From Caldifarciminota bacterium (lineage in GTDB: Bacteria; Hydrothermota; Hydrothermia; B15-G9), in the NCBI GenBank assembly GCA_015489175.1, contig WGAI01000044.1, positions 1-32,778 of the forward strand: DNA of 32,778 bases. The letters run 5' to 3'. Both the position numbers and the translations under genes were made by a program. Under the pieces are notes generated by a model. It had not been told where the DNA came from, did no database searches, and saw only the letters and a program-made list of their open reading frames with translations. Position 1 is the stretch's first letter; each line of letters starts with the position of its first letter. This document shows, piece by piece, positions 10,075 to 32,778 of the stretch.

Positions 10075-11720
10075 TGTATGAAAAAAGCTACAAATGGCTG
10101 TCCATACTTAGGATATCTTCTGTTACTGCTATCCTGGGTACTGCCGTCTATTACCTTAAGGACATTTTCGGCCTGGTTTTTGCCATTCATCTTGCACTTC
10201 TGATCTTTTTCATATATGCCATCACGCTTGCTCTCTGGTCATACATAAAACGCAAAAGGCCCAGAATTGTCTTCGCATATCTCCTTTTTGCTCTGGACAT
10301 CACAATTTACACCCTGATTATCTTCACAACCGGTGGATTGGACAGCTCCTTTCTGTTCCTTTATGCGATAGCAGTTATCGCCGCTGCAATTGTGCTTTCC
10401 ACACGCGGGGCGTTTTTTGCAGCGACTTACTCAAGCCTGATGCTTTTTTTCATGGCGTTTCTTATCTATCGAAATATAGTTCCGCCAACTGAATTTTTCG
10501 ATAAAGTTGATAATTTACAGGGATATGATAGTGACCTTTTTTTTCAGGCCTTTTTTCAATCCCTTTTTCTCTTCTTGATAGCCGCTTTTTCAAGTTACTT
10601 CACCGAAGCCATAAAGTCTAAAACCATCGAGCTTGGCAAGCTTCGGGAATCTTTGATGCGGGCGAAGATGGATACATCCGCCATACTTCAAAACATACCT
10701 TCAGGTGTGATTGTGGCCGATGAAAAAGGAAAAATCCATTACATAAACGACGCCGCAAGACATATTTTGAACTTAAACGGAGAGAAGATATCCAATTTGA
10801 GACAGATTGTGGAACAATGGCCTCAGGTTTACAACGACTTCGAGCAATATATCATCTATCCAGAAGCTATATCTGCCCCCTTTAAGAGCGAGATAAACAG
10901 AGATGGCAGGAGCTATATTGTCACCCTTTCCAGATTTGCTGATTCTGACAGGTATATCTTGACAATAGAGGACATAACCGAGCAGAGACGGCTTCAGGAA
11001 AAGCTACGAGAACAGGAACGATATGCGTTATTGGGGCAGCAGATGGCGGAAATGGTTCATTCATTGGGCAATCCGGTCGCTGCTCTAAAAGGAGTGGCTC
11101 AGATACTCCAATCAGGGACATCAGAGGAGAACATGCAGAAGTTGTTGAAAATAATGGATCAGGAGCTTTCAAGGGTGTCATCTATATTGCACAGATACCG
11201 CCAGTTTTCGGGAGTCCATGCAATTTTCCCGCAGCCGATAAAGTTGCGCGAATTTTTCAATTCTTTGGTGCGAAAGGTCAGGTATATGAGCGAGAGCAGT
11301 GGGGTGGAGATAGTGCTTGATTTCAGGAATCCGCCTGATACCGTCGAATTCGACGCTGAGAAATTGGAGGAAGCACTTGTTAACATGATAAGGAACAGCA
11401 TCGAGGCTCTGCATGGCGGCGGCACGATAAAAATATCCGTGTGTGGCCCGAAAGAAAGTGTTGAAGGGGTTAAGAAACACTGGGAGATCCCAACAGGCCA
11501 CTGGGGAGTATGTATTTCCGATAACGGGACGGGTATTTCCGAAGAGGCTGTCCATAAAATTTTTACGCCATCGTTCACAACAAAGGCTCAGGGCCTTGGT
11601 CTTGGCCTTGCCATAACCAAGCGAATAATCGAAGTGCATGGTGGTTCGATAGATTTTGACACAGAACCGGGGAAAGGGACAATTTTCATCGTAACATTGC
11701 CTTTAAAAGTAAGGAGTTAA
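10074..11720 (+). CDS. pilS: PilS-like membrane sensor histidine kinase
   Basis: Membrane kinase predicted to phosphorylate the adjacent NtrC-type activator. The 548-residue protein starts with about six membrane segments (roughly 8-180) including the PilS-like GGLDSSFLFLYAIAVI, followed by a PAS domain (about 198-300), a HisKA domain with His329 in EMVHSLGNPVAALKG, and a HATPase domain with the N box N437-N441 (NMIRNS), DNGTG at 483-487 and GLGLGLA at 507-513. Its ATG overlaps the pilC stop (TGATG), so translation is coupled. In Pseudomonas PilS senses pilin in the membrane; that signal is only inferred here because no pilin gene is present in the window. Confidence 0.87.
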   Translation: MYEKSYKWLSILRISSVTAILGTAVYYLKDIFGLVFAIHLALLIFFIYAITLALWSYIKRKRPRIVFAYLLFALDITIYTLIIFTTGGLDSSFLFLYAIAVIAAAIVLSTRGAFFAATYSSLMLFFMAFLIYRNIVPPTEFFDKVDNLQGYDSDLFFQAFFQSLFLFLIAAFSSYFTEAIKSKTIELGKLRESLMRAKMDTSAILQNIPSGVIVADEKGKIHYINDAARHILNLNGEKISNLRQIVEQWPQVYNDFEQYIIYPEAISAPFKSEINRDGRSYIVTLSRFADSDRYILTIEDITEQRRLQEKLREQERYALLGQQMAEMVHSLGNPVAALKGVAQILQSGTSEENMQKLLKIMDQELSRVSSILHRYRQFSGVHAIFPQPIKLREFFNSLVRKVRYMSESSGVEIVLDFRNPPDTVEFDAEKLEEALVNMIRNSIEALHGGGTIKISVCGPKESVEGVKKHWEIPTGHWGVCISDNGTGISEEAVHKIFTPSFTTKAQGLGLGLAITKRIIEVHGGSIDFDTEPGKGTIFIVTLPLKVRS

Positions 11721-11724
11721 ACTT

Positions 11725-13098
11725 ATGGGGAAGATACTTGTTGTGGATGATGAGGTTGGGATAGCTAACATGTTGCAGATAGCTCTCTCCCAAGAGGGCC
11801 ATGATGTGGATGTCGCATATTCTGCCCGCGAAGCGCTTGAGAAAGCCACAGAAAATCCGCCAGATGTCGCTGTGATCGACATAAGGATGGAAGGGATGAG
11901 CGGGTTGGACCTTCTCTCAGCACTCAGGAACATTGGCGATGTAACTGTTATAATGATGACAGCTTACGCATCTGTTGAGTCGGCAGTGGAATCTCTCAGA
12001 AAAGGAGCTTTTGACTACATCATGAAACCGTTTGACATCGATGAAATGAAAGTTGTTGTGGATAGGGCATTTGAATACAGGAAGTTGATGAGAGAGAACC
12101 GCAAACTTCGCGAGGAGATCAAAAAATACCGCAGATATGAAAAGCTGATCGGTGAGCATCCGGCGTTTCGCTCCGTGCTGGAAAAGGCCAAAATCATTGC
12201 CAAGACGGATTCCACGGTTATGATTTACGGGGAGAGCGGCACGGGCAAAGAGCTTGTGGCTCGTGAATTACATTCCTTGAGCAACAGGGCAAACGGCCCA
12301 TTCGTGGCGATTAACATGGCTTCTATCCCCGAGGATTTACTTGAAAGCGAGCTGTTTGGTCACAAAAAAGGGGCTTTCACCGGGGCGTCGTCAGACAAAA
12401 AGGGGCTTTTCGTAGCCGCAAACGGCGGAACCCTTTTCCTTGATGAGATAAGTGAAACTTCGCCGAAACTTCAAGCGAAATTGCTGCGGGCAATTGAATC
12501 GAAGGAAATTACCCCGCTCGGAGCCACAAAGCCTATAAAAGTTGATGTTCGCATAGTCGCAGCTACTAACAAGAACTTAAAACGACTTGTGGATGAGAAG
12601 AAGTTCAGGGAGGACCTGTTCTATCGACTGAATGTTATAACCATCACGATTCCGCCCCTAAGGGAGCGCAAAAGCGATATCCCGTTGCTTGTTGACTATT
12701 TCCTCAACAAATATTCCGTCCGTCACGGTCTGCCGAACAAGAAGATAACGCGTGATGCATTGGATGTCCTCATGAAATACTCATGGCCGGGCAATGTCAG
12801 AGAACTCGAGCATGTAATCGAGCAGGCCCTCATATTGTCTCAGGGTGATACGATCGATGTCGGTGATCTGCCAGACGAGATCAAGAATGCGGTCAAGCGT
12901 GGCAAATCGAGCCGTTCACTCGCTGGTATCCTTGAAGATAACGGACTGATTTCTCTGGAAGAGTTGGAGAAAAAATATATCCAGATGGTGTTGAACGAGA
13001 CAAAATGGGACAAAAGGCGCGCTGCGTCAATCCTCGGGATCGACCTCTCAACGCTTTACCGCAAAATCACCAAATACAACATCAAGAAGGAGGAATGA
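11725..13098 (+). CDS. pilR: PilR-like sigma-54-dependent response regulator (NtrC family)
   Basis: Transcription activator that uses ATP to open sigma-54 promoters, probably controlling pilus genes. The 457-residue protein has a receiver domain (1-120) with acidic pocket VVDDE, phospho-acceptor Asp52 in AVIDIRMEGMSG, Thr79 and Lys101; an AAA+ domain with Walker A GESGTGKE at 169-176, the sigma-54 contact loop GAFTGA at 216-221, Walker B GGTLFLDE at 234-241 and REDLFYRLNV; and a C-terminal Fis-type helix-turn-helix (WDKRRAASILGIDLSTLYRK). AAGGAG ends eight bases before the ATG, four bases after the kinase stop. GAFTGA is intact, so it should be a true sigma-54 activator. Confidence 0.9.
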   Translation: MGKILVVDDEVGIANMLQIALSQEGHDVDVAYSAREALEKATENPPDVAVIDIRMEGMSGLDLLSALRNIGDVTVIMMTAYASVESAVESLRKGAFDYIMKPFDIDEMKVVVDRAFEYRKLMRENRKLREEIKKYRRYEKLIGEHPAFRSVLEKAKIIAKTDSTVMIYGESGTGKELVARELHSLSNRANGPFVAINMASIPEDLLESELFGHKKGAFTGASSDKKGLFVAANGGTLFLDEISETSPKLQAKLLRAIESKEITPLGATKPIKVDVRIVAATNKNLKRLVDEKKFREDLFYRLNVITITIPPLRERKSDIPLLVDYFLNKYSVRHGLPNKKITRDALDVLMKYSWPGNVRELEHVIEQALILSQGDTIDVGDLPDEIKNAVKRGKSSRSLAGILEDNGLISLEELEKKYIQMVLNETKWDKRRAASILGIDLSTLYRKITKYNIKKEE

Positions 13099-14866: not shown

Positions 14867-14903
14867 TCCTTGTTTTGAAAAACAGTGTAAGGAGGTGGTA
14901 GTT

Positions 14904-15743
14904 ATGTTACAGCTGGTAATTGCTTTAGTGTTGGCCTCTGGTGTAAGACAAGGGGCCCTGACTAACAACCTGACATATAGGTCAGGTATCAGACCACCTA
15001 TCGTTGCTCAACCTCTCTCCGGGCTTGATTCCATGAATGTGAGATTTGTGGGTTCATGGCCATTCGGTGCATCTAAGGCAGTAACAGTTAACGGGGACAC
15101 AGTATTTGTAGGTTCAGGTGGAGGCATTGTCATACTTGATGCAAGCGATCCTTCCACTTTAATAAAGATAGGGGAGATAAGGACAAGAGGTTTAGTAAAA
15201 GAAATGCAATATCATGATGGGAAGTTGTATGTGGCTGATGGCCAGGGAGGAATTGAAATCTGGGATGTCACAAATGTCTCTTCTCCTGCTAAGCTTGGAG
15301 CCTATTTTCCGCCTGGATATGTGCGTGACATATTTGTATTGGGCAACTACGCTTATGTGGCTTGTATTTGGGGTGGTCTGCGAATAATAGATGTAAGTGA
15401 TCCCACAAATCCGCAAGAGGTGGGATATTACAATACACCGGGAGATGCAAATGGTGTATATGTATCAGGCAACTACGCCTATGTGGCTGATGGTGATTCT
15501 GGCCTTCGTGTTATAAATGTGAGTAACCCAGACAATCCACAAGAGGTGGGATACTACGATACACCGGGTAGTGCGTATGATGTATATGTATCAGGCAACT
15601 ACGCCTATGTGGCTGATGGTGATTCTGGCCTTCGTGTTATAAATGTGAGTAACCCAGACAATCCGCAAGAGGTGGGATACTACGATACACCGGGTTATGC
15701 GTATGATGTATATGTATCAGGCAACTATGCCTATTGTTGGTGA
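14904..15743 (+). CDS. N-terminal fragment of giant LVIVD beta-propeller surface protein (frameshifted)
   Basis: First 279 residues of what was one protein of about 2,190 residues. A short hydrophobic leader (MLQLVIALVLASG) suggests export. From about residue 60 it consists of LVIVD repeats of 42 residues, each with a core like YVADGDSGLRVINVS, which build beta-propellers on secreted proteins. The frame ends at TGA 15741-15743, in the middle of the sixth repeat, because of one extra base; the repeats continue without loss in the next frame. ATG 14904 is preferred because AAGGAGG ends eight bases upstream; the GTG at 14895 overlaps that ribosome site. Unless the frameshift is a sequence error or is bypassed, this product would be a truncated five-repeat protein. 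Confidence 0.8.
   Translation: MLQLVIALVLASGVRQGALTNNLTYRSGIRPPIVAQPLSGLDSMNVRFVGSWPFGASKAVTVNGDTVFVGSGGGIVILDASDPSTLIKIGEIRTRGLVKEMQYHDGKLYVADGQGGIEIWDVTNVSSPAKLGAYFPPGYVRDIFVLGNYAYVACIWGGLRIIDVSDPTNPQEVGYYNTPGDANGVYVSGNYAYVADGDSGLRVINVSNPDNPQEVGYYDTPGSAYDVYVSGNYAYVADGDSGLRVINVSNPDNPQEVGYYDTPGYAYDVYVSGNYAYCW
15471..15722 (+). repeat. almost identical adjacent LVIVD repeat copies
   Basis: The copies 15471-15596 and 15597-15722 differ at only 3 of 126 bases, while other neighbours differ at many positions. This points to a recent tandem duplication, immediately upstream of the frameshifted copy. Confidence 0.9.
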
Positions 15744-18700
15744 TGGCTTTGCTGGGATAAGAATAATAGATGTAAGTGACCCCACGACTCCCAATGAAGT
15801 AAGTCATTATTCCCCATCACGCTACACATTTAATGTGTATGTATCAGGTAACTACGCCTATGTAGCTAGTTCTCCACGAGGTCTGGTGATGATAGATGTG
15901 AGCGACCCTGCCAACCCTCAAGAAGTAAGTCACTACAGCATGCCGGACTTTGCAAATAGCATAGATGTGTCGGGTAATTACGTCTATCTGGCAGACGGTA
16001 ATGCTGGCCTGAGGATAATAGATGTAAGTTATCCTACGAATCCAAACGAAGTGGGGCATATTGAGACTAAAGATTTTGCGTTTGATGTGCAGGTATCAGG
16101 AAATTACGCCTATGTGGCTGATGGTGATTCCGGCCTTAGAGTGGTAGATGTCAGTGATCATACCAACCCTCAAGAAGTAGGTCATTGTTATACACATAGC
16201 TTAGCAATGGGCATTTATGTGGCGGGGAATTATGCTTATGTAGCTGATGGCGCTTCTGGTTTGAGAGTGATAGATGTGAGTAACCCAGAAAATCCGCAAG
16301 AGGTGGGATATTACGATACGCCAGGTCATGCGTATGATGTGTATGTATCAGGAAATTACGCCTATGTAGCTGATTACGATTCTGGTCTTCGTGTTATAGA
16401 TGTGAGTGACCCAGAGAACCCGCAAGAGGTGGGATATTATGATACGCCAGGTGATGCGCATGATGTGTATGTATCAGGGAATTACGCCTATGTAGCTGAT
16501 GGTAATTCCGGGGTAAGGGTAATAAATGTAAGCGATCCTGCAAATCCATACGGGGTAAGCTGTTACTACGATACGTATGCTGAAGGTGTATATGTGTCGG
16601 ACAATTATGTTTATGTAGCTGATGGTATGTATGGGGTAAGAGTAATCGATATTAGTGATCCAGAATCTCCTCGGGAAGTGGCAAATTACAGAACCCCAGA
16701 TGAGGCGAAAAATGTAGTTGAGAGAGATAACTATATCTATGTAGCTGATAAATACGCAGGGGTTCAGATATATACAATTCAAACTGAGCCACCTGAGACA
16801 CCTTCCCTTATCTCCCCGATTGGCGGTGTATGGCTGCACGATGCAACTGTAACATTGCGATGGACAGCAGTCACCAAGCTGGCTGGTGGTGTGAAATCGA
16901 GACCTATTCGCTACTTCGTTGAGTTGATGTCTAACGACTCAACCGTGCTCGTTGATACAGTTGATACAAATCAGTTGACAGTCTCTCTCAGCGAGGGCCG
17001 CTATAACTGGCATGTAAGGGCATCTGACCTTGTTGGCAATTTATCCGACTGGTCGCCTATCGATTCGTTCGGCGTTGATATCACGCCGCCAACCTCTGTG
17101 ACCCTACTTGAGCCTCAAGACGGTGAGATTTTAAGCAGTTCACACGTGTTCTTTGAGTGGACTGATGCGGAAGACACAACGAGTGGCATTGCTGGTTACT
17201 GGCTTGAGATGGCGGACAACAGCGATTTCTCATCTCCAGAAAGCCTATTTGTAAGCCCGTCGTATATTATATTGACGGTGCACGATACGATCTGCTTCTG
17301 GCGAGTGAAAGCTGTTGATAGTTCAGGGCTGACAGGTGCGTGGAGCGAGGTATGGAACTTTGAAGTTGACACCGTTGCGCCTGAGATGCCTTCGCTTGTC
17401 TCACCAGTTGGTGGTGTGTGGCTTCACAACACAAATGTGACATTAAGATGGACATCGTCGTCAAAGGGCTCCGAAGAAGCTGTTGATAACAATGTCAAAG
17501 GCTCATCTGTTCACTATGTGATCGAAGTTACGAAAGGTGCTACGACAGTTATCTTTGACACCATTGAGGTCGATACTTTTAGCACTATCCTGCAAGAGGG
17601 TGTTTATCGGTGGCATGTCAAAGCATTCGACGATGCGGGAAACCAATCCGACTGGTCACCAACTGATTCCTTTGGAGTTGACATCACGCCCCCAACCGCT
17701 GTGACTCTACTTTGGCCTCCAGATGGGGAATTTTTTAACGACCCATCTGTAAGTTTTTATTGGGATGATGCAGAAGACACCACGAGTGGAGTTGCTGGCT
17801 ACTGGCTTGAAATAGCGAGTAACAACGATTTTTCGTCTCCGGAAAGCGTGTTTGTAAGCCAATCTGAGACAACATTGACGGTGCACGATACGATCTGCTT
17901 CTGGCGAGTTAAAGCTGTTGACGGTTCGGGGCTGACAGGCGCGTGGAGCGAGACACGGAGTTTTGAAGTTGACACCGTTGCGCCTGAGATGCCTTCGCTT
18001 GTCTCACCAGTTGGTGGTGTTTGGCTACATGATACAACTGTGACCTTTAGGTGGTCACAGTCGTCAAAAGGACTCTATCATGGCATCAAAAGCTCACCTG
18101 ACCACTATCAGATAGAAATTCGGAAAGGCGACATAACTGTGATCTTTCGTACCGTTGATACCGACACTATTAGTCTGGTTCTGCAAGAAGGTGTTTATCG
18201 GTGGCGCGTTGTGGCATTTGATGATGCGGGAAACCAATCCGATTGGACACCGTTTGATTCCTTTGGAGTTGACATCACGCCTCCAACCGCTGTGACGCTC
18301 CTCACACCTCAAGACGGTGCACTATTTAACAGCTCGTCCGTGAGTTTTGACTGGACTGATGCAGAAGACACCACGAGCGGCGTTGCTGGTTACTGGCTTG
18401 AGATAGCGGGCAACAACGATTTTTCGTCTCCGGAAAGCGTGTTTGTAAGCCAATCTGAGACAACATTGACGGTGCACGATACGATCTGCTTCTGGCGAGT
18501 TAAAGCTGTTGATGGTGCAGGGCTGACAGGCGCGTGGAGCGAGGTATGGAGCTTTGAAGTTGACACCGTTGCGCCTGAGATGCCTTCGCTTGTCTCACCA
18601 GTTGGTGGTGTGTGGCTTCATGACACAAGTGTGACATTCGAATGGACATCGGCAGCGAAGTCCATGTCAGTGCGATACATTTTTGAATTGATGTATTACG

Positions 18701-21480
18701 GCATATCCATAATCGTCGATACGGTTGACACGAATGAGTTGACAGTTTCTATCAATGAAGGCCGCTATTACTGGCGAGTCAAGGCATTTGATATGGCGGG
18801 CAACCAATCTGACTGGTCTCAAATAGATTCGTTTGGAATAGATATGACGCCGCCTGACACTGTCTCTCTGATAGCTCCTACCAATGGCGCAAAGCTCAAT
18901 ACATCATCTGTAACATTTAACTGGAACGGTTCATCGGATCTCATAAGTGGGGTAATGGGATATTGGATTGAGCTTTCAAACGATAGCCTTTTTGCAACTC
19001 CAGAAAGTGTATTTGTAAGTCATCAAATCAATTATTACCTACCCGAGACTACAATAACATTGAGCGATACAACATGGTTCTGGCGTGTCAAAGCTGTTGA
19101 CAGTTCAGGTTTGTCGAGTGCGTGGAGCGAGACATGGATGTTTACCGTGGATACACAAGCACCTTTGGTCTCTTCACTTATAGATCCTATGTCAGGTGTA
19201 TGGCTACACGACACAACCGTGACATTTCGATGGTCCCAGTCATCGAAGCAATGGAGCGGACCGCTCAAAGGAAAAGAGACATCCATCCACTATGTCATAG
19301 AAGTTCTGAAAGGAAATACCATTTTAATCTCCGACACTGTCGATACCAACGAGTTGACAACCATAATTTACGAGGGCAGATACACGTGGCATGTTAAAGC
19401 GTTCGACGAGGCTGGAAACGCATCCGACTGGTCGCCGATCGATTCGTTCGGCGTTGACATCACGCCGCCGGGCGTTGTGGAGCTCATATTGCCGCCCGAT
19501 GATGCGGTTCTGAACCATCCCGATGTGACCTTCGACTGGAGCGACGCTGAGGATACCACAAGCGGCATCGCAGGCTACTGGCTGGAACTTTCGACGGATA
19601 GCCTGTTCAACTACGCTGACAGCATCTTCGTCTCGCAATCCGAAACCACGATGACGCTCAATGATACCACATGGTTCTGGAGGGTCAAAGCTGTTGATGT
19701 CTCTGGACTCTCAGGTGAATGGAGCTACAAGTTCTTGTTCACGATCGATACGAATGCTCCTCAGGCACCCGTCGCTATCTCACCTGTTGGAGGTGAATGG
19801 CTGCACGACACTTATGTGACCTTCCAGTGGACCGAGGTAAGCAAGAAGCCAATGATCATGCGCTATGTGATTGAGGTGATGAGGGATGGAGATGTTGTCC
19901 TGCACGACACGACCGATGTCAACGCGTATACGGCCGTGCTGAGTGAGGGCAGATACATCTGGCATGTTAAGGCGTTCGACGAAGCAGGTAATGCATCCGA
20001 CTGGTCGCCGATCGATTCGTTCGGCGTTGACATCACGCCGCCGGGCGTTGTTGAGCTCATATTGCCGCCCGATGATGCGGTTCTGAACCATCCCGATGTG
20101 ACCTTCGATTGGAGTGATGCTGAGGATACCACAAGCGGCGTCGCAGGCTATTGGTTGGAAGTCGGAGTAGACAGCGAGTTTATTATTGCGGATAGCGCAT
20201 TTATAACACAATCAGAGACTACTGTGGTGCTTCCGGATACCACATTTTTCTGGCGTGTCAGGGCGATCGATGGATCAGGGCTTCAAGGTGATTGGTCAGA
20301 CATCAGGAGGTTCACCATTGACAGCCGTGCCCCGGATGTACCTTCTTTATACAATCCAACAGGAGGAATTTGGCTTAGAGATACAATTGTTGATTTTAAC
20401 TGGAGCTCTGTTGAATCACCTTCAAAGCCTACGCCTGTGCATTATGTGATTGAAGTTATAAGTGGTGGTGCGACAGTTATCCACGACACGGTTGACACCA
20501 ACGAGCTGGTGGTTGTGCTTGATGAGGGCAGATACACATGGCATGTTAAAGCGTTTGACGAGGCTGGCAACGCATCCGACTGGTCGCCTATCGATTCGTT
20601 CGGCGTTGACATCACGCCGCCGACTCCGCCAGAACCAATATGGCCTATCGATAGTTTTGCAACATCAGTTGATACCATCGAGTTTGTGTGGCATCCTGCA
20701 CTCGATAACCTGAGTGGGGTTCAAGATTACCTACTTAATTTTGCCAACGACGCATGGGTGACTACCGATACCTTTGTGACAGTGGAAATAGGTCATCTCA
20801 TGGATGGTATCTACACATGGTATGTGTCCGCAACTGATACTGCTGAAAACACGAGTATTTCGGACGAGCAGGTATTCATTATAGACAGGACCGCTCCGAA
20901 TATCGAGGAGCTTACAACATGGAGCGATACAATCGGGTTCTTCGGTCCATTTGAAATTCAACTCAGGGTGACGGACAGCCTCAGCGGTGTCGGGGAAGCC
21001 TGGCTTTTCTATTCCGTTGATGGTGGCGATTTCGATTCAATACCGATGACACATGACAGCTTATGGCATGCCCAGATCCCTGCATTTTCAGATTCAATGA
21101 ACCATACAATAAGCTATTTTGTCAGAGCGTTTGACAACGCAGTCCCGCCCAATGAATGCATCAGCGAAACGATCACTTTCAATGTGACTGGCATCGAAGA
21201 GGAGCCCCATATCCTACCATCCGGGTTCGCCTTGCTCGGTGTAACGCCCAATCCGACAGGGAATTTCGTAATGTTCAAGCTCGCTGTGCCCCATAGTGGA
21301 TCGGCACATCTGGAACTGTTTGATGCAAGCGGTAGGCGGATTTTGAGCCGGGATTTTGTTCTTGAACCTGGCTACCGAATTGTGAAAGTAAACCTTAGCA
21401 GCGTGACTTCTGGCATCTATTATGCGATCATCATATACGGCAATGTCTCTGTGAAGGGCAGAATCATAGTTGTGCGTTGA
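15697..21480 (+). CDS. main part of the giant LVIVD/Ig-repeat surface protein with C-terminal sorting domain (displaced frame)
   Basis: Continuation of the frameshifted gene. The open frame begins at 15697, but the first residues are the LVIVD repeat read out of frame, no ribosome site precedes them, and sense homology begins only near 15736. Order: nine further LVIVD repeats to about 16780; about 14 Ig/FnIII-like domains in seven alternating A-B pairs (16795-20880), with type A ending in an SDWSPIDSFGVDITPP-like phrase and type B carrying DAEDTTSGVAGYWLE; an extra Ig-like domain (about 20890-21200); and a C-terminal domain with PNPTGNFVMFKL, LELFDASGRRI, SGIYYAIIIYG and a final basic VVR. 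That C-terminus resembles the T9SS type A sorting domain. Probably a cell-surface adhesin or matrix protein; ligand unknown. Confidence 0.82.
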   Translation: MRMMYMYQATMPIVGDGFAGIRIIDVSDPTTPNEVSHYSPSRYTFNVYVSGNYAYVASSPRGLVMIDVSDPANPQEVSHYSMPDFANSIDVSGNYVYLADGNAGLRIIDVSYPTNPNEVGHIETKDFAFDVQVSGNYAYVADGDSGLRVVDVSDHTNPQEVGHCYTHSLAMGIYVAGNYAYVADGASGLRVIDVSNPENPQEVGYYDTPGHAYDVYVSGNYAYVADYDSGLRVIDVSDPENPQEVGYYDTPGDAHDVYVSGNYAYVADGNSGVRVINVSDPANPYGVSCYYDTYAEGVYVSDNYVYVADGMYGVRVIDISDPESPREVANYRTPDEAKNVVERDNYIYVADKYAGVQIYTIQTEPPETPSLISPIGGVWLHDATVTLRWTAVTKLAGGVKSRPIRYFVELMSNDSTVLVDTVDTNQLTVSLSEGRYNWHVRASDLVGNLSDWSPIDSFGVDITPPTSVTLLEPQDGEILSSSHVFFEWTDAEDTTSGIAGYWLEMADNSDFSSPESLFVSPSYIILTVHDTICFWRVKAVDSSGLTGAWSEVWNFEVDTVAPEMPSLVSPVGGVWLHNTNVTLRWTSSSKGSEEAVDNNVKGSSVHYVIEVTKGATTVIFDTIEVDTFSTILQEGVYRWHVKAFDDAGNQSDWSPTDSFGVDITPPTAVTLLWPPDGEFFNDPSVSFYWDDAEDTTSGVAGYWLEIASNNDFSSPESVFVSQSETTLTVHDTICFWRVKAVDGSGLTGAWSETRSFEVDTVAPEMPSLVSPVGGVWLHDTTVTFRWSQSSKGLYHGIKSSPDHYQIEIRKGDITVIFRTVDTDTISLVLQEGVYRWRVVAFDDAGNQSDWTPFDSFGVDITPPTAVTLLTPQDGALFNSSSVSFDWTDAEDTTSGVAGYWLEIAGNNDFSSPESVFVSQSETTLTVHDTICFWRVKAVDGAGLTGAWSEVWSFEVDTVAPEMPSLVSPVGGVWLHDTSVTFEWTSAAKSMSVRYIFELMYYGISIIVDTVDTNELTVSINEGRYYWRVKAFDMAGNQSDWSQIDSFGIDMTPPDTVSLIAPTNGAKLNTSSVTFNWNGSSDLISGVMGYWIELSNDSLFATPESVFVSHQINYYLPETTITLSDTTWFWRVKAVDSSGLSSAWSETWMFTVDTQAPLVSSLIDPMSGVWLHDTTVTFRWSQSSKQWSGPLKGKETSIHYVIEVLKGNTILISDTVDTNELTTIIYEGRYTWHVKAFDEAGNASDWSPIDSFGVDITPPGVVELILPPDDAVLNHPDVTFDWSDAEDTTSGIAGYWLELSTDSLFNYADSIFVSQSETTMTLNDTTWFWRVKAVDVSGLSGEWSYKFLFTIDTNAPQAPVAISPVGGEWLHDTYVTFQWTEVSKKPMIMRYVIEVMRDGDVVLHDTTDVNAYTAVLSEGRYIWHVKAFDEAGNASDWSPIDSFGVDITPPGVVELILPPDDAVLNHPDVTFDWSDAEDTTSGVAGYWLEVGVDSEFIIADSAFITQSETTVVLPDTTFFWRVRAIDGSGLQGDWSDIRRFTIDSRAPDVPSLYNPTGGIWLRDTIVDFNWSSVESPSKPTPVHYVIEVISGGATVIHDTVDTNELVVVLDEGRYTWHVKAFDEAGNASDWSPIDSFGVDITPPTPPEPIWPIDSFATSVDTIEFVWHPALDNLSGVQDYLLNFANDAWVTTDTFVTVEIGHLMDGIYTWYVSATDTAENTSISDEQVFIIDRTAPNIEELTTWSDTIGFFGPFEIQLRVTDSLSGVGEAWLFYSVDGGDFDSIPMTHDSLWHAQIPAFSDSMNHTISYFVRAFDNAVPPNECISETITFNVTGIEEEPHILPSGFALLGVTPNPTGNFVMFKLAVPHSGSAHLELFDASGRRILSRDFVLEPGYRIVKVNLSSVTSGIYYAIIIYGNVSVKGRIIVVR
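15732..15743 (+). other. single-base frameshift inside the LVIVD array
   Basis: Sibling repeats read TAT GTG GCT GAT at this place; here the sequence is TAT T GTT GGT GAT. The extra T at 15734/15735 creates TGA at 15741. The distance between equivalent repeat positions is 127 here against exactly 126 for nearly all other copies, which pins the change to one inserted base. Confidence 0.85.
17821..17921 (+). repeat. 101-bp exact direct repeat, copy 1
   Basis: Bases 17821-17921 recur exactly at 18412-18512, 591 bases downstream, covering the second half of type B domains 2 and 3. Identity without silent changes indicates recent duplication or gene conversion. Confidence 0.9.
18412..18512 (+). 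repeat. 101-bp exact direct repeat, copy 2
   Basis: Exact copy of 17821-17921 in the following A-B pair; the flanks (GATGGTGCAG here, GACGGTTCGG there) diverge immediately after it. Confidence 0.9.
19423..19587 (+). repeat. 165-bp near-exact direct repeat, copy 1
   Basis: Matches 19996-20160 with 7 differences, mostly third-position changes. It spans the end of a type A domain and the first half of a type B domain, so the repeat crosses a domain boundary. Confidence 0.88.
19996..20160 (+). repeat. 165-bp near-exact direct repeat, copy 2
   Basis: Second copy, 573 bases after the first. A shorter third relative starts at 20575 and loses similarity after the DITPP motif. Confidence 0.88.
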
Positions 21481-26274: not shown

Positions 26275-26308
26275 TTCGCCATATTTAACAGCATGGAGGA
26301 GGATGAAT

Positions 26309-28672
26309 ATGTTGAAAAAATTGATATCTATTTTTATCTTTGTGGCTTCAATATCTGCGCAGCGTGTGGTGACCATCAGGGACATCCAATACACGACCGA
26401 TCCAAGCGGTGATTCCCCACTTGTAGGCCAGACCGTGACATTTACCGGCATCGTCACTGCAACTGCATCCCAATACCCTCCTTATAACGGCGGTTTTCTT
26501 GTTCAGGATTCATCCGGCTCGTGGCATGGCGTCTATGTGTATCTCAACCACATGGTAGTCGATGTGTCCGTCGGCGATTCGGTGAGGGTTACAGGAGAAG
26601 TTTCTGAGTATTACGGCCTTACAGAGGTAACGATAGGCTCTGAAAGCGATGTAACCATACTTGCCAGCGGACGGCCTGTGCCTCAGCCGGCGGTCGTTAC
26701 CACCTCACAGATAGCGAACGATTCCTCTGTCGCTGAGCCTTACGAGTGTGTGCTGGTTGAGGTTCACGATGCGGTCGTCACAAACGACAATCTCGGCTAC
26801 GGCCAGTGGGAGGTTGATGACGGAACTGGTCCGGCAATAGTTGACGATGCATATCCTTACTCCTACAGCCCGTCAGTGGGCGATACATTGATAATACTCA
26901 GGGGCGTAATGACTTATTCCTATGGCGAATACAAGTTGGAGCCGAGAGGGGACAACGACATAATAAGTTCGATAGACGGCACAGGTATGGCGTGGGTTGA
27001 GCCATCCGTGGTGCCGACTTCCACTACGATACCGAACTTGAGGCTCGGTTTCACAGGTGTGATGGGGAATTACGCCGTTGCTCGCATTGTTCTGCTTGTG
27101 CCAACGGCTTTCACATTTGATACATTCAACCTCAGTGGTGCGTTTGAAGGAGCAGTCGTTCAGAGGATTGGCCCACAGATAACGCTTTCAAACATATCCA
27201 TAACGGAGCATGATACGGGTTACATCGATTTTGTCAACTTTACAACGCCCTCAGAGCCTGACACTTACAGGGTGTCCGTCATGACGGCGGGCGAAAACGG
27301 CACGCCTCAGCCCATACCTGAATTCCCTGAGATTCAGGTGTTGCCGGTGGCCGGGACCGGCATGGCCTCGATATCGCCTTTCATGCTCGCTCAGTCCGAT
27401 ACCGTTGACCTCAAGCTCAGTTTTGAGGGTGAATTTGGCGTTGTGCGTGCTGTGAAATTCATCGTTCCCGGCGACCTTATCGATTGGGACGGTGAACTTG
27501 AGCTCGATGGCGCTCTGGCAAATGGCAGCCATCAGGTGAACGGTGACACGATTCTCATCTACGATGTCGAGCTAAATCCGGGCGATGCGGGATGTGTCGT
27601 CCTCAAGTCAGTGAGCCCTTATGACGGGTTCAGCGACTCATCGCGCGTTGTGGTCATGAGCGGAACCGACACGACAAACCTGACTCCGCTATCTTCAAGT
27701 CCATTGCTGGTCGTTGAGTCCTCAGATTCCACCGAGCCGTTCCTCATGCTCGGAAAGCTTCAGGCTCCGGGCGCTGATGGCTACTCATCGGCATACGAAG
27801 GGCAATTCGTCAGCGTCATCGGCGTGGTTACCGGCCCTCCATCTGCATTCTCGAGCTCAGGCAAGTTGTCGATGTATATTCAGGATGTATCGGGTGGAGT
27901 GAACATCTATGCGCCGAGCTGGAGCGGAGGCAGCTTTCAGGTCGGCCAGCTGGTGTCATTCTACGGCAGGGTGACTGAATACAATGGACTGACCGAGGTG
28001 GTGCTTGAAGGGCCGAACTACACGCTTTACGGCGGCGGATATTCGTTCGACACGACTTCGCTCAAGCCGTCTGAGCCGTTGTCCGAGAAGTATGAGGGCC
28101 GCCTCGTGAAGGTCACAGGTGAAGTCGCATCTTCGCCTGTTGAGGCCGGTGCAGGCAGGTCTTTCACCGTGTGGAACGGGTTTACGCCCATAACCGTCTA
28201 TGTTTACAACACGACAGGAGTGGATCTTTCAGAAGTTGAGCCTGGAAAGCTTGTGAGCGTCGTCGGAATTGGTGGGCAATACGACCGCGATGAGCCTTAC
28301 GACGCCGGTTACCAGCTTCTGGTTAGGTTCCAGGACGACATCCAGATTATCGGTCAGGGTAGGGACACCAGCGAAGTCTCGATCGAGGTGCATCCCAATG
28401 TGTTTGCGCCTTCTCTCGGAGAGGTGGCCAACATCGATGTGGCGGGCCCGCGCGATGCGAGATACACCCTGAGCGTCTACGATGCGCGCGGACGCTTGGT
28501 CAAGGACATCTACATCGGAAAACCGGGGCCGGCAAACGCAATATGGCGCGGCGACGACAGGTTCGGCGCACCGGTGACGGTCGGGCTTTACTTTATCAGA
28601 CTTGAAGTTCACCATCCCGACGGAAAGATCGAGACACTGACCAAAACCGTTGCGGTGGGAGATAACTTCTGA
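26309..28672 (+). CDS. secreted protein with two OB-fold domains and C-terminal FlgD-like Ig domain
   Basis: A 787-residue exported protein. MLKKLISIFIFVASISAQ is a standard signal peptide. Domains: a YhcR-type OB-fold region (about 20-215, GQTVTFTGIVTA, FLVQDSSG, VGDSVRVTGEVSEYYGLTEV), two related beta-sandwich domains beginning GTGMAWVEP (about 223) and GTGMASISP (about 348), a second OB-fold region (about 487-690, GQFVSVIGVVTGP, MYIQDVSGGVNIYAP, FYGRVTEYNGLTEV), and a C-terminal domain with YTLSVYDARGRLVKDI and GLYFIRLEV, the FlgD-like/T9SS-associated type. No nuclease active site is visible although such OB-folds often accompany extracellular nucleases. ATG 26309 is preferred over 26303 because AGGAGG ends six bases before it. 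It is coupled to ddl by a TGATG overlap. Confidence 0.83.
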   Translation: MLKKLISIFIFVASISAQRVVTIRDIQYTTDPSGDSPLVGQTVTFTGIVTATASQYPPYNGGFLVQDSSGSWHGVYVYLNHMVVDVSVGDSVRVTGEVSEYYGLTEVTIGSESDVTILASGRPVPQPAVVTTSQIANDSSVAEPYECVLVEVHDAVVTNDNLGYGQWEVDDGTGPAIVDDAYPYSYSPSVGDTLIILRGVMTYSYGEYKLEPRGDNDIISSIDGTGMAWVEPSVVPTSTTIPNLRLGFTGVMGNYAVARIVLLVPTAFTFDTFNLSGAFEGAVVQRIGPQITLSNISITEHDTGYIDFVNFTTPSEPDTYRVSVMTAGENGTPQPIPEFPEIQVLPVAGTGMASISPFMLAQSDTVDLKLSFEGEFGVVRAVKFIVPGDLIDWDGELELDGALANGSHQVNGDTILIYDVELNPGDAGCVVLKSVSPYDGFSDSSRVVVMSGTDTTNLTPLSSSPLLVVESSDSTEPFLMLGKLQAPGADGYSSAYEGQFVSVIGVVTGPPSAFSSSGKLSMYIQDVSGGVNIYAPSWSGGSFQVGQLVSFYGRVTEYNGLTEVVLEGPNYTLYGGGYSFDTTSLKPSEPLSEKYEGRLVKVTGEVASSPVEAGAGRSFTVWNGFTPITVYVYNTTGVDLSEVEPGKLVSVVGIGGQYDRDEPYDAGYQLLVRFQDDIQIIGQGRDTSEVSIEVHPNVFAPSLGEVANIDVAGPRDARYTLSVYDARGRLVKDIYIGKPGPANAIWRGDDRFGAPVTVGLYFIRLEVHHPDGKIETLTKTVAVGDNF

Positions 28673-30383: not shown

Positions 30384-31148
30384 ATGAGGATTAAGCTGAC
30401 ATTTGATCCTGTGGAAGGGCATTTAAAGTTGCCTGTTGCATACAATCACATTATTCAAAGCTTTATTTACAGGCACATAGGTAAACTTGCCGATAAGCTG
30501 CATGACGGCGGCTATCGCTACGGCAAAAGAAGTTATAAGTTGTTTACATTCTCGAGGATGCGAGCCACCGAGATAAAGTATAACCGCGACGACAGGACCC
30601 TGACATTCAGTGGAAAAATCTGGATTTACATAGCATCACTCAAAAACGACCTGCTCGAATCCCTCACATTGACGATGGTCAAAAATGAGATTTTCGAGCT
30701 TAAAGGCCAGCCCGTGCGCATTGCATCGATTGAGGTTGATATGCCCGTCGAATACCGAGCCCCAATGCTCATCAAAATGATGTCTCCTGTGACGGTTTAC
30801 AGCACCCTCATGACGCCTGACAGCCGCAAAAAAACATATTTTTACACCCCGTGGGAGGATGAGTTCAGCGAGCTGGTGATCGATAACCTTGTGCGAAAGT
30901 TCAAAGCTCTGACATCGGATGAGCCACCAGATGTCAGTTCAGCATACATAAAGCCGATAAGAGTTGACAAGCATGATCTTGTCATCACGAGGTTTAAGGG
31001 ATACCTAATCAAGGGTTGGAAAGGCATTTATGAGCTAAATCTGCCGCCGCCATACTTCGAGATCGCCTACAACACAGGTATAGGCTCAAAAAACAGTCAG
31101 GGTTTTGGGATGTTCAGGATTGTGGGCACGCACGATGATGGGAAATAG
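30384..31148 (+). CDS. cas6: CRISPR-associated endoribonuclease Cas6
   Basis: Cleaves CRISPR precursor RNA within the repeats to make crRNAs. The 254-residue protein has the RAMP hallmarks: an N-terminal ferredoxin fold with NHIIQSFIYRHI, then LHDGG and YKLFTFSRM, and the C-terminal glycine-rich loop GIGSKNSQGFGMF at 232-244. Tyr29, His40 and Lys52 are candidates for the Pyrococcus-type catalytic triad by position only. A good ribosome site (AGAGAGGTTGAT) and a TATAAT box suggest that it is expressed. No other cas gene or CRISPR array is in the window, so it is a solitary cas6 that may serve an array elsewhere. Confidence 0.88.
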   Translation: MRIKLTFDPVEGHLKLPVAYNHIIQSFIYRHIGKLADKLHDGGYRYGKRSYKLFTFSRMRATEIKYNRDDRTLTFSGKIWIYIASLKNDLLESLTLTMVKNEIFELKGQPVRIASIEVDMPVEYRAPMLIKMMSPVTVYSTLMTPDSRKKTYFYTPWEDEFSELVIDNLVRKFKALTSDEPPDVSSAYIKPIRVDKHDLVITRFKGYLIKGWKGIYELNLPPPYFEIAYNTGIGSKNSQGFGMFRIVGTHDDGK

Positions 31149-31181: not shown

Positions 31182-31211
31182 TTGATTTGATGGGTTTAAT
31201 CGGGCTACAAT
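31182..31211 (+). promoter_or_regulatory. promoter of the glucan-binding protein-permease operon
   Basis: TTGATT (31182-31187) and TACAAT (31206-31211) are 18 bases apart, matching 4 and 5 consensus bases. The same 18-base spacing is seen in front of the giant surface-protein gene. AAAGGAGG and ATG 31243 follow. Confidence 0.5.
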
Positions 31212-31242
31212 ATGCAAAACATTGCAAAAAGGAGGAAAAAGG

Positions 31243-32376
31243 ATGAAGAATCTGGTTATGTTATTGGTTTTCACGATGATTTCCAGATATGCATGGGCGC
31301 ATCAGATAATAGTCGATGGTGATCCTTCCGATTGGACAGGTGTTGCGCCTGCCGCCGACCATTTCGCATATTCGCATGGCGAGGCGATATGGGCCGATGC
31401 AGCAGATGACGATTTGGGCGATGGCGGAGATGCACCTTACGCAGCGGACAACCCCGAACCGTATTCCTACCCGACGGATACTCTGTTTCAGGGCACCGAA
31501 GCCGACATGCTGGAATGGAGATACACATTCGACGAGGCCTCGAACAGGATCTATTTCCTGATTACCATGAACAACTATGACATAACATGGATGCCGTTCG
31601 TGGGCATAGCGATGGATCTCGACCATGCGTGGGGCAGCGGACAGACATGGCTCGGCGGATACGCTTCCCTCAAGGTAGACTCAGCCATATTCTGGGAGTA
31701 TAACATCCTTTTGAAGGACAACCACATCGTGGTTTACAACGCCCAATGGGACAGTGTAGGAGGAACCAATGAGGTGGTCTTCGACACCGCAAACAACACG
31801 ATCGAGGTGGGCGTAGATGTGTCACAGTGGGCGATCAACCCGATCACCGATGTGGATTCCGTCTATTTCGTTGTCTATTCCGGGCTTCAGGATTTCGGCA
31901 ACATGCGTGGCGTGGATTCTGTGGCATCCAGATGGAACGGAGGCGGCGGGACGGACAGCTGGGTTGATCCGAATGTGTATGACCTGTGTTTCGTGCCGTC
32001 CGACGATCAGGCCAATGATCTGAACAACTACACCGACACAAGTGCTTCTGTTGTAAGGCCTTCTTCCGCAATGCTTGTTGAAAATCATCGTATGGGGGTT
32101 GAGGAAACTGGATTTGCACCCGCACCGTTCGATTTCCACATAAACAATGTGCTGAGAAACGGTCTCTCGGTCAGATTCCATGTGCCAGAGCCATCCGACA
32201 TGAGCATAGAGATCTACTCGCCCGATGGCCGACTTGTGAGCATGCCGCTCGACAAACACATGTCAGCTGGCGATTTCAACATGTTCATCCCCGTGAACCT
32301 CAGGTCAGGCATCTACATCCTGAGAATTAAAATAGGTGCATCTTCGGTATTTGAAAAAATCGCCGTGGTGAGATGA
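31243..32376 (+). CDS. secreted glucodextranase-C-like carbohydrate-binding protein with C-terminal sorting domain
   Basis: A 377-residue exported protein. MKNLVMLLVFTMISRYAWA is a signal peptide with an AWA cleavage site. The mature protein begins IIVDGDPSDWTG, a start shared by CBM9/DOMON-like modules, and contains DDDLGDGGDAPYAAD, YSYPTDTLFQGTEADM and RIYFLITMNN, a pattern of the glucodextranase C-terminal domain (found in amylolytic enzymes). Residues about 300-377 form a sorting-type domain (MSIEIYSPDGRLVSM, SGIYILRIKIG, final VVR). No catalytic domain is seen, so it may be a surface glucan-binding protein. ATG 31243 is chosen for GGAGG seven bases upstream and the clean signal peptide; ATG 31222 precedes the ribosome site. 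Confidence 0.8.
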   Translation: MKNLVMLLVFTMISRYAWAHQIIVDGDPSDWTGVAPAADHFAYSHGEAIWADAADDDLGDGGDAPYAADNPEPYSYPTDTLFQGTEADMLEWRYTFDEASNRIYFLITMNNYDITWMPFVGIAMDLDHAWGSGQTWLGGYASLKVDSAIFWEYNILLKDNHIVVYNAQWDSVGGTNEVVFDTANNTIEVGVDVSQWAINPITDVDSVYFVVYSGLQDFGNMRGVDSVASRWNGGGGTDSWVDPNVYDLCFVPSDDQANDLNNYTDTSASVVRPSSAMLVENHRMGVEETGFAPAPFDFHINNVLRNGLSVRFHVPEPSDMSIEIYSPDGRLVSMPLDKHMSAGDFNMFIPVNLRSGIYILRIKIGASSVFEKIAVVR

Positions 32377-32778
32377 AAACCGATAAGCTAACACCTTATC
32401 TTTTCATACTGCCGTTCACGCTGATTTTCATCGTATTCCTTGGCTTTCCGTTCCTATACGCCCTTTATCTGAGCTTCCATCGGGTGGTGAACCTGTCAAA
32501 TGTCTTTGGAGGCCTGCAATTTGTGGGACTGAAGAATTACACGCAACTGCTTGGCGGATTTAACTTCTGGTGGTCGTTCGGGCTCACTCTGGTCTATGCG
32601 ATATTGCTAATTCCGCCCAACATCATCCTTGCCATCCTGATCGCAAGGGCACTCGTGAGGGATACACGACTTAACAGGGCTTACAGGACATTGTTTTTCC
32701 TGCCGTTCGTGCTGGATGTGTTCGTCGTCGGGGTGGTGTGGACGCTGATCTACACCACCCCTTACGGGGTTTTGCCAC
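32373..32778 (+). CDS. sugar ABC transporter permease, MalF/UgpA type (3' end outside window)
   Basis: Integral membrane subunit of a CUT1 sugar importer; the first 135 residues are present. Membrane segments: LFILPFTLIFIVFLGFPF (about 10-30), LTLVYAILLIPPNIILAILI (about 72-92) and TLFFLPFVLDVFVVGVVW (about 108-126). The FVGLKNYTQLL and NRAYRTLFFLPF phrases are characteristic of MalF/UgpA permeases. Its ATG overlaps the stop of the glucan-binding gene by four bases (ATGA), so the two are translationally coupled and probably act on the same sugar, plausibly a maltodextrin or another alpha-glucan. The binding protein, second permease and ATPase presumably lie nearby outside the window. Confidence 0.9.
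   Translation, partial: MKTDKLTPYLFILPFTLIFIVFLGFPFLYALYLSFHRVVNLSNVFGGLQFVGLKNYTQLLGGFNFWWSFGLTLVYAILLIPPNIILAILIARALVRDTRLNRAYRTLFFLPFVLDVFVVGVVWTLIYTTPYGVLP

Follow-up and report, generated by a model that had tools for sequence, protein, structure and literature searches.

The genes of one CUT1-type ABC importer in WOR-3 bacteria, which to our knowledge are uncultured, are accompanied across lineages by genes for exported proteins of two families (here I and II), and this genetic link between exported protein and importer is well supported. The family I protein encoded at the right-hand end of the window (the whole 32,778-nt stretch analysed) would, as we judge with somewhat better than even confidence from its sequence and gene context, be an exported, probably surface-displayed, non-catalytic α-glucan binder that acts as an accessory of this particular importer.

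An exported-protein gene overlapping a malF-type gene

The features of the window gene and of its junction with the next gene are collected in Table 1. For the start of the exported protein we favour the ATG at 31243, the program-called TTG at 31222 being less likely. The earlier note, made from the letters alone, had described an exported protein with a glucodextranase C-like module, a surface-sorting tail and no catalytic domain, whose gene overlaps the start of a MalF-type permease gene by four bases, and all of this was borne out: module and tail score above the cut-offs of their models, a signal peptide can be recognized by eye, SprA and a PorU-like protein are encoded in the genome, a Pfam scan of the 377-aa protein found no catalytic domain, and the permease assignment holds for the complete protein of a sister genome, with the linkage conserved. 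The CBM9 similarity that had also been proposed did not emerge, the same scan giving zero matches at E ≤ 1.

Table 1. Features of the exported-protein gene and the permease gene at the right-hand end of the window.
Feature	Position	Strand	Basis or detail
Shine-Dalgarno-like AAGGAGG	31229..31235	+	5' of ATG at 31243; read from sequence
Likely signal peptide MKNLVMLLVFTMISRYAWA, then H	31243..31299	+	translation inspected by eye
Family I protein, 377 aa (signal peptide, Glucodextran_C module, T9SS tail)	31243..32376	+	Pfam, NCBIfam; alignment A3, 11 members
Glucodextran_C (PF09985) module, residues 74-268	31462..32046	+	E 1.5e-9, 38.1 bits, cut-off 22
T9SS type A sorting tail, residues 307-374	32161..32364	+	TIGR04183, 25.3 bits, cut-off 23
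ATGA junction shared by the binder stop and the permease start	32373..32376	+	stop TGA 32374-32376; permease start 32373
MalF-type (CUT1) permease, first 135 residues, cut by contig end	32373..32777	+	weak NCBIfam matches; sister permease

A genome-wide PF09985 search recovered the module at the same position of the window gene, and the profile of the 11 family I members matched GH57 proteins of the clade over their Glucodextran_C portion (hhalign 97.4%, E 1.6e-11). The tail of that profile aligned with the C-terminal region of gingipain R2 (5ag9; E 7e-4); a PDB search with the single 377-aa sequence gave no match, and the Pfam tail model PF18962 scored 21.9 bits, below its cut-off of 27. Tails are uneven among the relatives, those of L046, L147 and L225 passing the TIGR04183 cut-off of 23 bits, those of L140 (14.8 bits), L137 (21.9 bits) and L223 (22.3 bits) falling below it, and L028 and L038 (f11 and f5) giving no TIGR04183 match at E 0.5. 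In one family I protein (L032, ~10643-11750; G014:C115) the T9SS tail is replaced by dockerin-like repeats, as judged by eye. The AlphaFold2 model of the binder, from a three-sequence input, was too poor (pLDDT 37.5) for any binding site to be judged.

Because the contig (G000:C44) stops at 32778, the window holds only a 135-aa fragment of the permease. This fragment scored far below the NCBIfam cut-offs (the highest scores being 36.3 bits for UgpA and 32.8 bits for GlcT), and its residues 1-135 are 99% identical to a 298-aa permease (L026:11131-12027) in a sister candidate division WOR-3 MAG (L026; JALVZN010000095.1). The sister protein matches BPD_transp_1 (PF00528) with 54.1 bits (cut-off 26.4), and its complete gene is paired there with a binder 96% identical to that of the window. 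A four-base overlap is by itself ordinary in bacterial operons. At the binder/malF junction it occurs in G000 (the window's own genome), G001, G003, G011, G016, G024 and G059, with an overlap of four or one base in G028, of one base in G032, and gaps of 1 base in G002 and 12 bases in G030; in f6, gaps of ~30-55 bases separate the exported-protein gene from malF, with a terminator-like hairpin seen by eye in G017 and G025.

The further ABC subunits and amylases once predicted to the right of the pair are absent there in this genus, because malF in the sister is followed by three RAMP genes (PF03787), Cmr2 (PF12469), Cmr3 (PF09700), Cmr5 (PF09701) and a CARF-domain gene, by their domains a type III-B CRISPR locus. 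In the window's genus the malG, SBP and ATPase genes are non-adjacent to the binder-malF pair, MalG and SBP being encoded elsewhere in the genome; malF is followed by a MalG-type gene in families f11 and f6. The transporter pair is set in a CRISPR neighbourhood, with cas6 directly upstream of the binder (window 30384-31148; counterpart in L026 by eye) and, in the sister, the type III-B (Cmr) operon and CARF gene directly downstream of malF (L026:12302-21130). Elsewhere in the window, the 789-aa product of 26303-28672 looks exported and resembles ExeM/NucH in its N-terminal region, with a weak FlgD-Ig-like tail and apparently no nuclease domain. A common repeat pattern runs through two ORFs that overlap in different frames (14895-15743 and 15697-21480), as if one large repeat protein had been divided by a frameshift.

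Two families of exported proteins at fixed positions

A search of 60 relatives with this MalF gave 19 matches at E ≤ 1e-40, from which G047 (140 bits, the next lowest being 197) was excluded as a different permease, leaving 18 MalF genomes; the gene 5' of malF was readable in 17, the contig of G012 starting at malF. Directly 5' of malF, 15 of these 17 have a gene for an exported-looking protein (signal peptides judged by eye), and the malF orthologues concerned span families f1, f5, f6, f11 and f25. The protein belongs to family I in G000, G001, G002, G003, G028, G030 and G032, is a two-domain family I relative of 658-661 aa (hhalign 97.8%) in G011, G016 and G024, and is of family II type in G017, G022, G025, G034 (partial, assigned by eye) and G059. 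The exceptions are the f8 genomes G014 and G019, where a nucleotidyltransferase-like gene (by eye) precedes malF. That the slot is taken by either of two families argues that it has a function. Moreover, the MalF tree joins f11, with its family I slot, to f6, with its family II slot (support 86/95, with a long-branch warning from the tool), and therefore at least one slot swap is likely; such an exchange of families I and II is suggested by the tree, not proven. Among the titles listed by our open-literature searches, none named a pairing of such an exported protein with malF.

The malF slot is not the only one. G011, G016 and G024 have an additional family I gene directly before an ABC ATPase gene, whose product is of CUT1 type by eye and, for G024, gave an ABC_tran match. 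The listed matches to family I are mostly to the tail; counting only module-covering matches at E < 1e-14, we found 18 family I places among those listed, of which 10 adjoin a malF or ATPase gene, five (G005, G009, G014:C115, G019:C61 and G059) have no such ABC gene on their readable sides, and three (G008, G014:C143 and G019:C17) end downstream at contig breaks.

Family II genes, in turn, lie directly behind the SBP gene in all 13 genomes that have family II and were covered by both searches (G000-G003, G011, G014, G016, G019, G024, G028, G030, G032 and G059); eight of these adjacencies were seen as ORF pairs and the remainder by coordinates, two of the latter at contig breaks. The SBP search covered 16 genomes, with five f6 genomes outside it; G005, G008 and G009 have SBPs and neither family II nor this MalF. 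The family II type of the malF slot and that of the SBP slot are related to each other (hhalign 97.2% over 259 columns). Comparison of family II with Pfam gave no domain apart from weak tails, and with the PDB nothing significant, the best match being a CBM74/Sas6 starch protein at E 0.13. Since family II thus has no recognised domain and no significant PDB match, it is from the position of its genes that we infer a possible role as sugar binder.

Several candidate relationships were rejected: the A5 type of family II aligned with family I only along the tail and showed no relation to the GH57 alignment, and the A7 type was weakly similar to family I (39.6%) and not at all to the two-domain type. 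A second, weaker set of family II-like matches consists mostly of 435-558-aa frames in f6, f8 and f11.

Both families also track this MalF by presence. Above 135 bits, a threshold chosen after viewing the list, family II occurs in exactly the 18 of 60 genomes that carry it; at E ≤ 1e-10 two further genomes appear, G036 (108.8 bits) and G056 (tail only, 42.2 bits). PF09985 or family I (the latter among the matches listed) was found in 18/18 MalF genomes and in 5/42 others (Fisher p 4e-11, uncorrected for relatedness of the genomes). Across the phylum, 23 of 147 genomes have a PF09985 match, above cut-off in 22, as do 2 of 14 controls. The own genome has three further MalF-type genes (on C63, C4 and C40), and these contigs have neither a PF09985 match nor an A5-type family II match: PF09985 occurs only at C44 and C61, and A5 only at C6. 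Of these other contigs, C4 encodes an 814-aa fusion of SBP and MalF-type permease (L044:476-2920; PF13416, PF01547 and PF00528 in one chain), and on C63 a second pair of MalF and MalG genes is directly followed, in the same orientation, by a gene for a PorU-like C25 peptidase (L043:7940-13592).

Partner genes and the likely substrate

Elsewhere in the own genome we identified MalG (C1:34824-35603), 64% identical to the MalG of G028, which like the full-length sister MalF is above the BPD_transp_1 cut-off; an SBP (C6:38375-39277; PF13416, and PF01547 with 169 bits) with a lipoprotein-like start by eye; and, at C67, a candidate ATPase with 53% identity over 239 aa to that of G024. The genome also encodes, at C61 (L186:6093-8909), a secreted-looking 939-aa protein that combines CBM48, GH57 (5.5e-57) and Glucodextran_C (1.3e-66), the architecture of four of the six long PF09985 proteins scanned; the profile of the clade's GH57-linked proteins matched glucodextranase 1ug9 over the module (2e-22). 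In two other phylum members, Glucodextran_C shares a chain with a Peptidase_MA-type domain (L189:7188-8963 and L190:6864-8732). A 1025-aa protein of the g6 SBP cluster, taken by eye for a GH57 enzyme, found no support in Pfam searches, PDB sequence searches or profile comparison.

Two CBM48 proteins are encoded near the own malG, and the SBP cluster of G024 encodes another; beside malG in G001 or G003 none was seen. The longer protein near the own malG and that of G024 (L138:5356-7516 on G000:C1 and L153:1458-3197 on G024:C8) have 579 aa, with a barrel-like region after CBM48 and a C-terminal Phe (both by eye), and are candidate glucan porins; in G000 a 139-aa CBM48 protein adjoins the 579-aa one.

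The own SBP resembles many sugar SBPs, so its similarity leaves the substrate unfixed. With SprA, a PorU-like protein and the CBM48-GH57-Glucodextran_C enzyme all encoded in the same genome, an α-glucan is the likely substrate. Import of another sugar, for instance a β-glucan, with Glucodextran_C a generic β-sandwich, is unlikely without being negligible, and could hold together with the other alternatives discussed below. Consistent with it, the window protein has a divergent module (38 bits, where the own GH57 protein reaches 225), the genes next to the binder-malF pair include no glycoside hydrolase and the SBP resembles many sugar SBPs; these points are set against a module common to the clade's CBM48-GH57 proteins and against CBM48 genes close to the own malG and, in G024, within the SBP cluster.

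Secretion and passage of the outer membrane

SprA is encoded in the own genome (summed 481.6 bits, cut-off 200) and scores above cut-off in 15 of 16 genomes searched and in none of 14 controls. The PorU-like protein of the own genome comprises Peptidase_C25 and its propeptide, with 398.4 bits for NF033707 (equivalog cut-off 420). Our open-literature search found no paper treating WOR-3 and type IX secretion jointly, and the relevant passage of a 2023 review restricts such T9SS tails to Bacteroidota (PMC10202324).

Surface display of the binder, which these genes and the tail point to, has a rival in which the tails are relics and the exported proteins remain periplasmic, working alongside the SBP as accessory solute receptors. 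Genes for such a receptor would indeed be expected next to those for permease, SBP and ATPase, and several relatives have degenerate or sub-threshold tails; yet the tail of the window's family scores above the cut-off of the T9SS model, the genome encodes SprA together with a PorU-like protein, and we regard a periplasmic location as improbable.

TonB-dependent barrels were found in all seven genomes searched, with six matches in G000, none of them in the stretches read around the own binder-malF pair, malG and SBP. In G028, a gene of TonB-dependent-receptor type (L028:2661-4505 on C3; 70.5 bits) lies ~5 kb from the binder on the opposite strand, and similar ORFs were recognized by eye in G030 and G032 (L029:5748-7589 and L030:1654-3480); in these three genomes the distance to binder-malF-malG is ~2-6 kb, always on the other strand. 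Either such a TonB-type gene or the barrel-like CBM48 protein could mark the outer-membrane route.

Discussion

That an exported protein is kept before malF, even when drawn from a second family, makes it look like part of a starch-scavenging system. Another reading takes Glucodextran_C for an SLH-like attachment module, the protein then tying something to the cell envelope and having no part in nutrient capture; the Pfam text on PF09985 indeed describes a C-terminal binding module that is SLH-like, and in G059 and G087 the module is joined to a Peptidase_MA-type domain, where a starch role is not obvious. The repeated linkage to malF and ATPase genes and the co-occurrence with one importer nevertheless point to transport, as does the prevalence of CBM48-GH57 among the long PF09985 proteins, and we hold attachment to be distinctly unlikely. 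Mere chance or operon drift as the source of the binder-malF adjacency, to which the position of the pair in the window's genus (apart from its partners, between cas6 and a type III-B locus) might lend some colour, is hardly credible given 15 of 17 malF orthologues over five families, two protein families in one slot, an SBP gene directly preceding family II in all 13 genomes covered by both searches and a chance of adjoining any CUT1 gene that we roughly guess at 1-2% per gene.

For the accessory binder that we favour, the pathway might run as follows. A type IX secretion system would carry the binder and other tailed proteins to the cell surface, where they, with the CBM48-GH57-Glucodextran_C enzyme, would hold and cut starch- or glycogen-like polymers; the resulting oligosaccharides would pass the outer membrane by a putative route, and the SBP (MalE) would hand them to MalF-MalG and an ATPase, the family II gene that follows the SBP gene providing a second exported protein. 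The earlier note had proposed a nutrient-capture operon, and its outline stands, with a conserved CUT1 linkage, an SBP, MalG and a GH57 enzyme, shorn of CBM9 and of the expected right-hand neighbours. Its binder feeding a CUT1 importer survives as gene linkage; direct feeding is impossible, since an SBP and an outer-membrane route must intervene between a protein at the surface and a permease of the inner membrane.

In Sus systems of Bacteroidota, non-catalytic surface glycan binders and an exported enzyme feed an importer. The parallel with them drawn earlier holds so far as an analogy, not as membership. A bolder reading, which we offer tentatively and rate somewhat below even, is that WOR-3 bacteria may possess an ABC-driven counterpart of Sus, a surface-to-cytoplasm α-glucan pathway outside Bacteroidota in which T9SS-exported binders of two families swap at set gene positions (5' of malF, 3' of the SBP gene and 5' of an ATPase gene), all serving one CUT1 importer. 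If true, this fixed partnership of exported protein and ABC importer would provide a testable model of polysaccharide uptake by a T9SS-bearing diderm, would extend type IX cargo biology beyond Bacteroidota, and would point to a function for the two unnamed protein families.

Compared with known systems, the window protein shares with glucodextranase (PDB 1ug9/1ulv) the C-terminal module, as a PF09985 match above cut-off, and differs in lacking a catalytic domain, in having a signal peptide and T9SS tail, and in being encoded in an operon with a permease. MalF- and MalG-type permeases, an SBP and an ABC ATPase are as in CUT1 (MalEFGK-type) importers; what sets the present system apart is that malF is preceded, and the SBP gene followed, by exported-protein genes of two families in fixed positions, and that the importer genes are scattered in the window's genus. 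Sus shares the idea of a surface binder plus enzyme, and in G028 a TonB-type gene lies ~5 kb from the binder; the inner-membrane importer here is an ABC system. Finally, the protein resembles T9SS type A cargo in its TIGR04183 tail above cut-off and the profile match to the gingipain tail, and stands apart in its host, a WOR-3 bacterium, such tails being limited to Bacteroidota in the cited passage of the review (PMC10202324).
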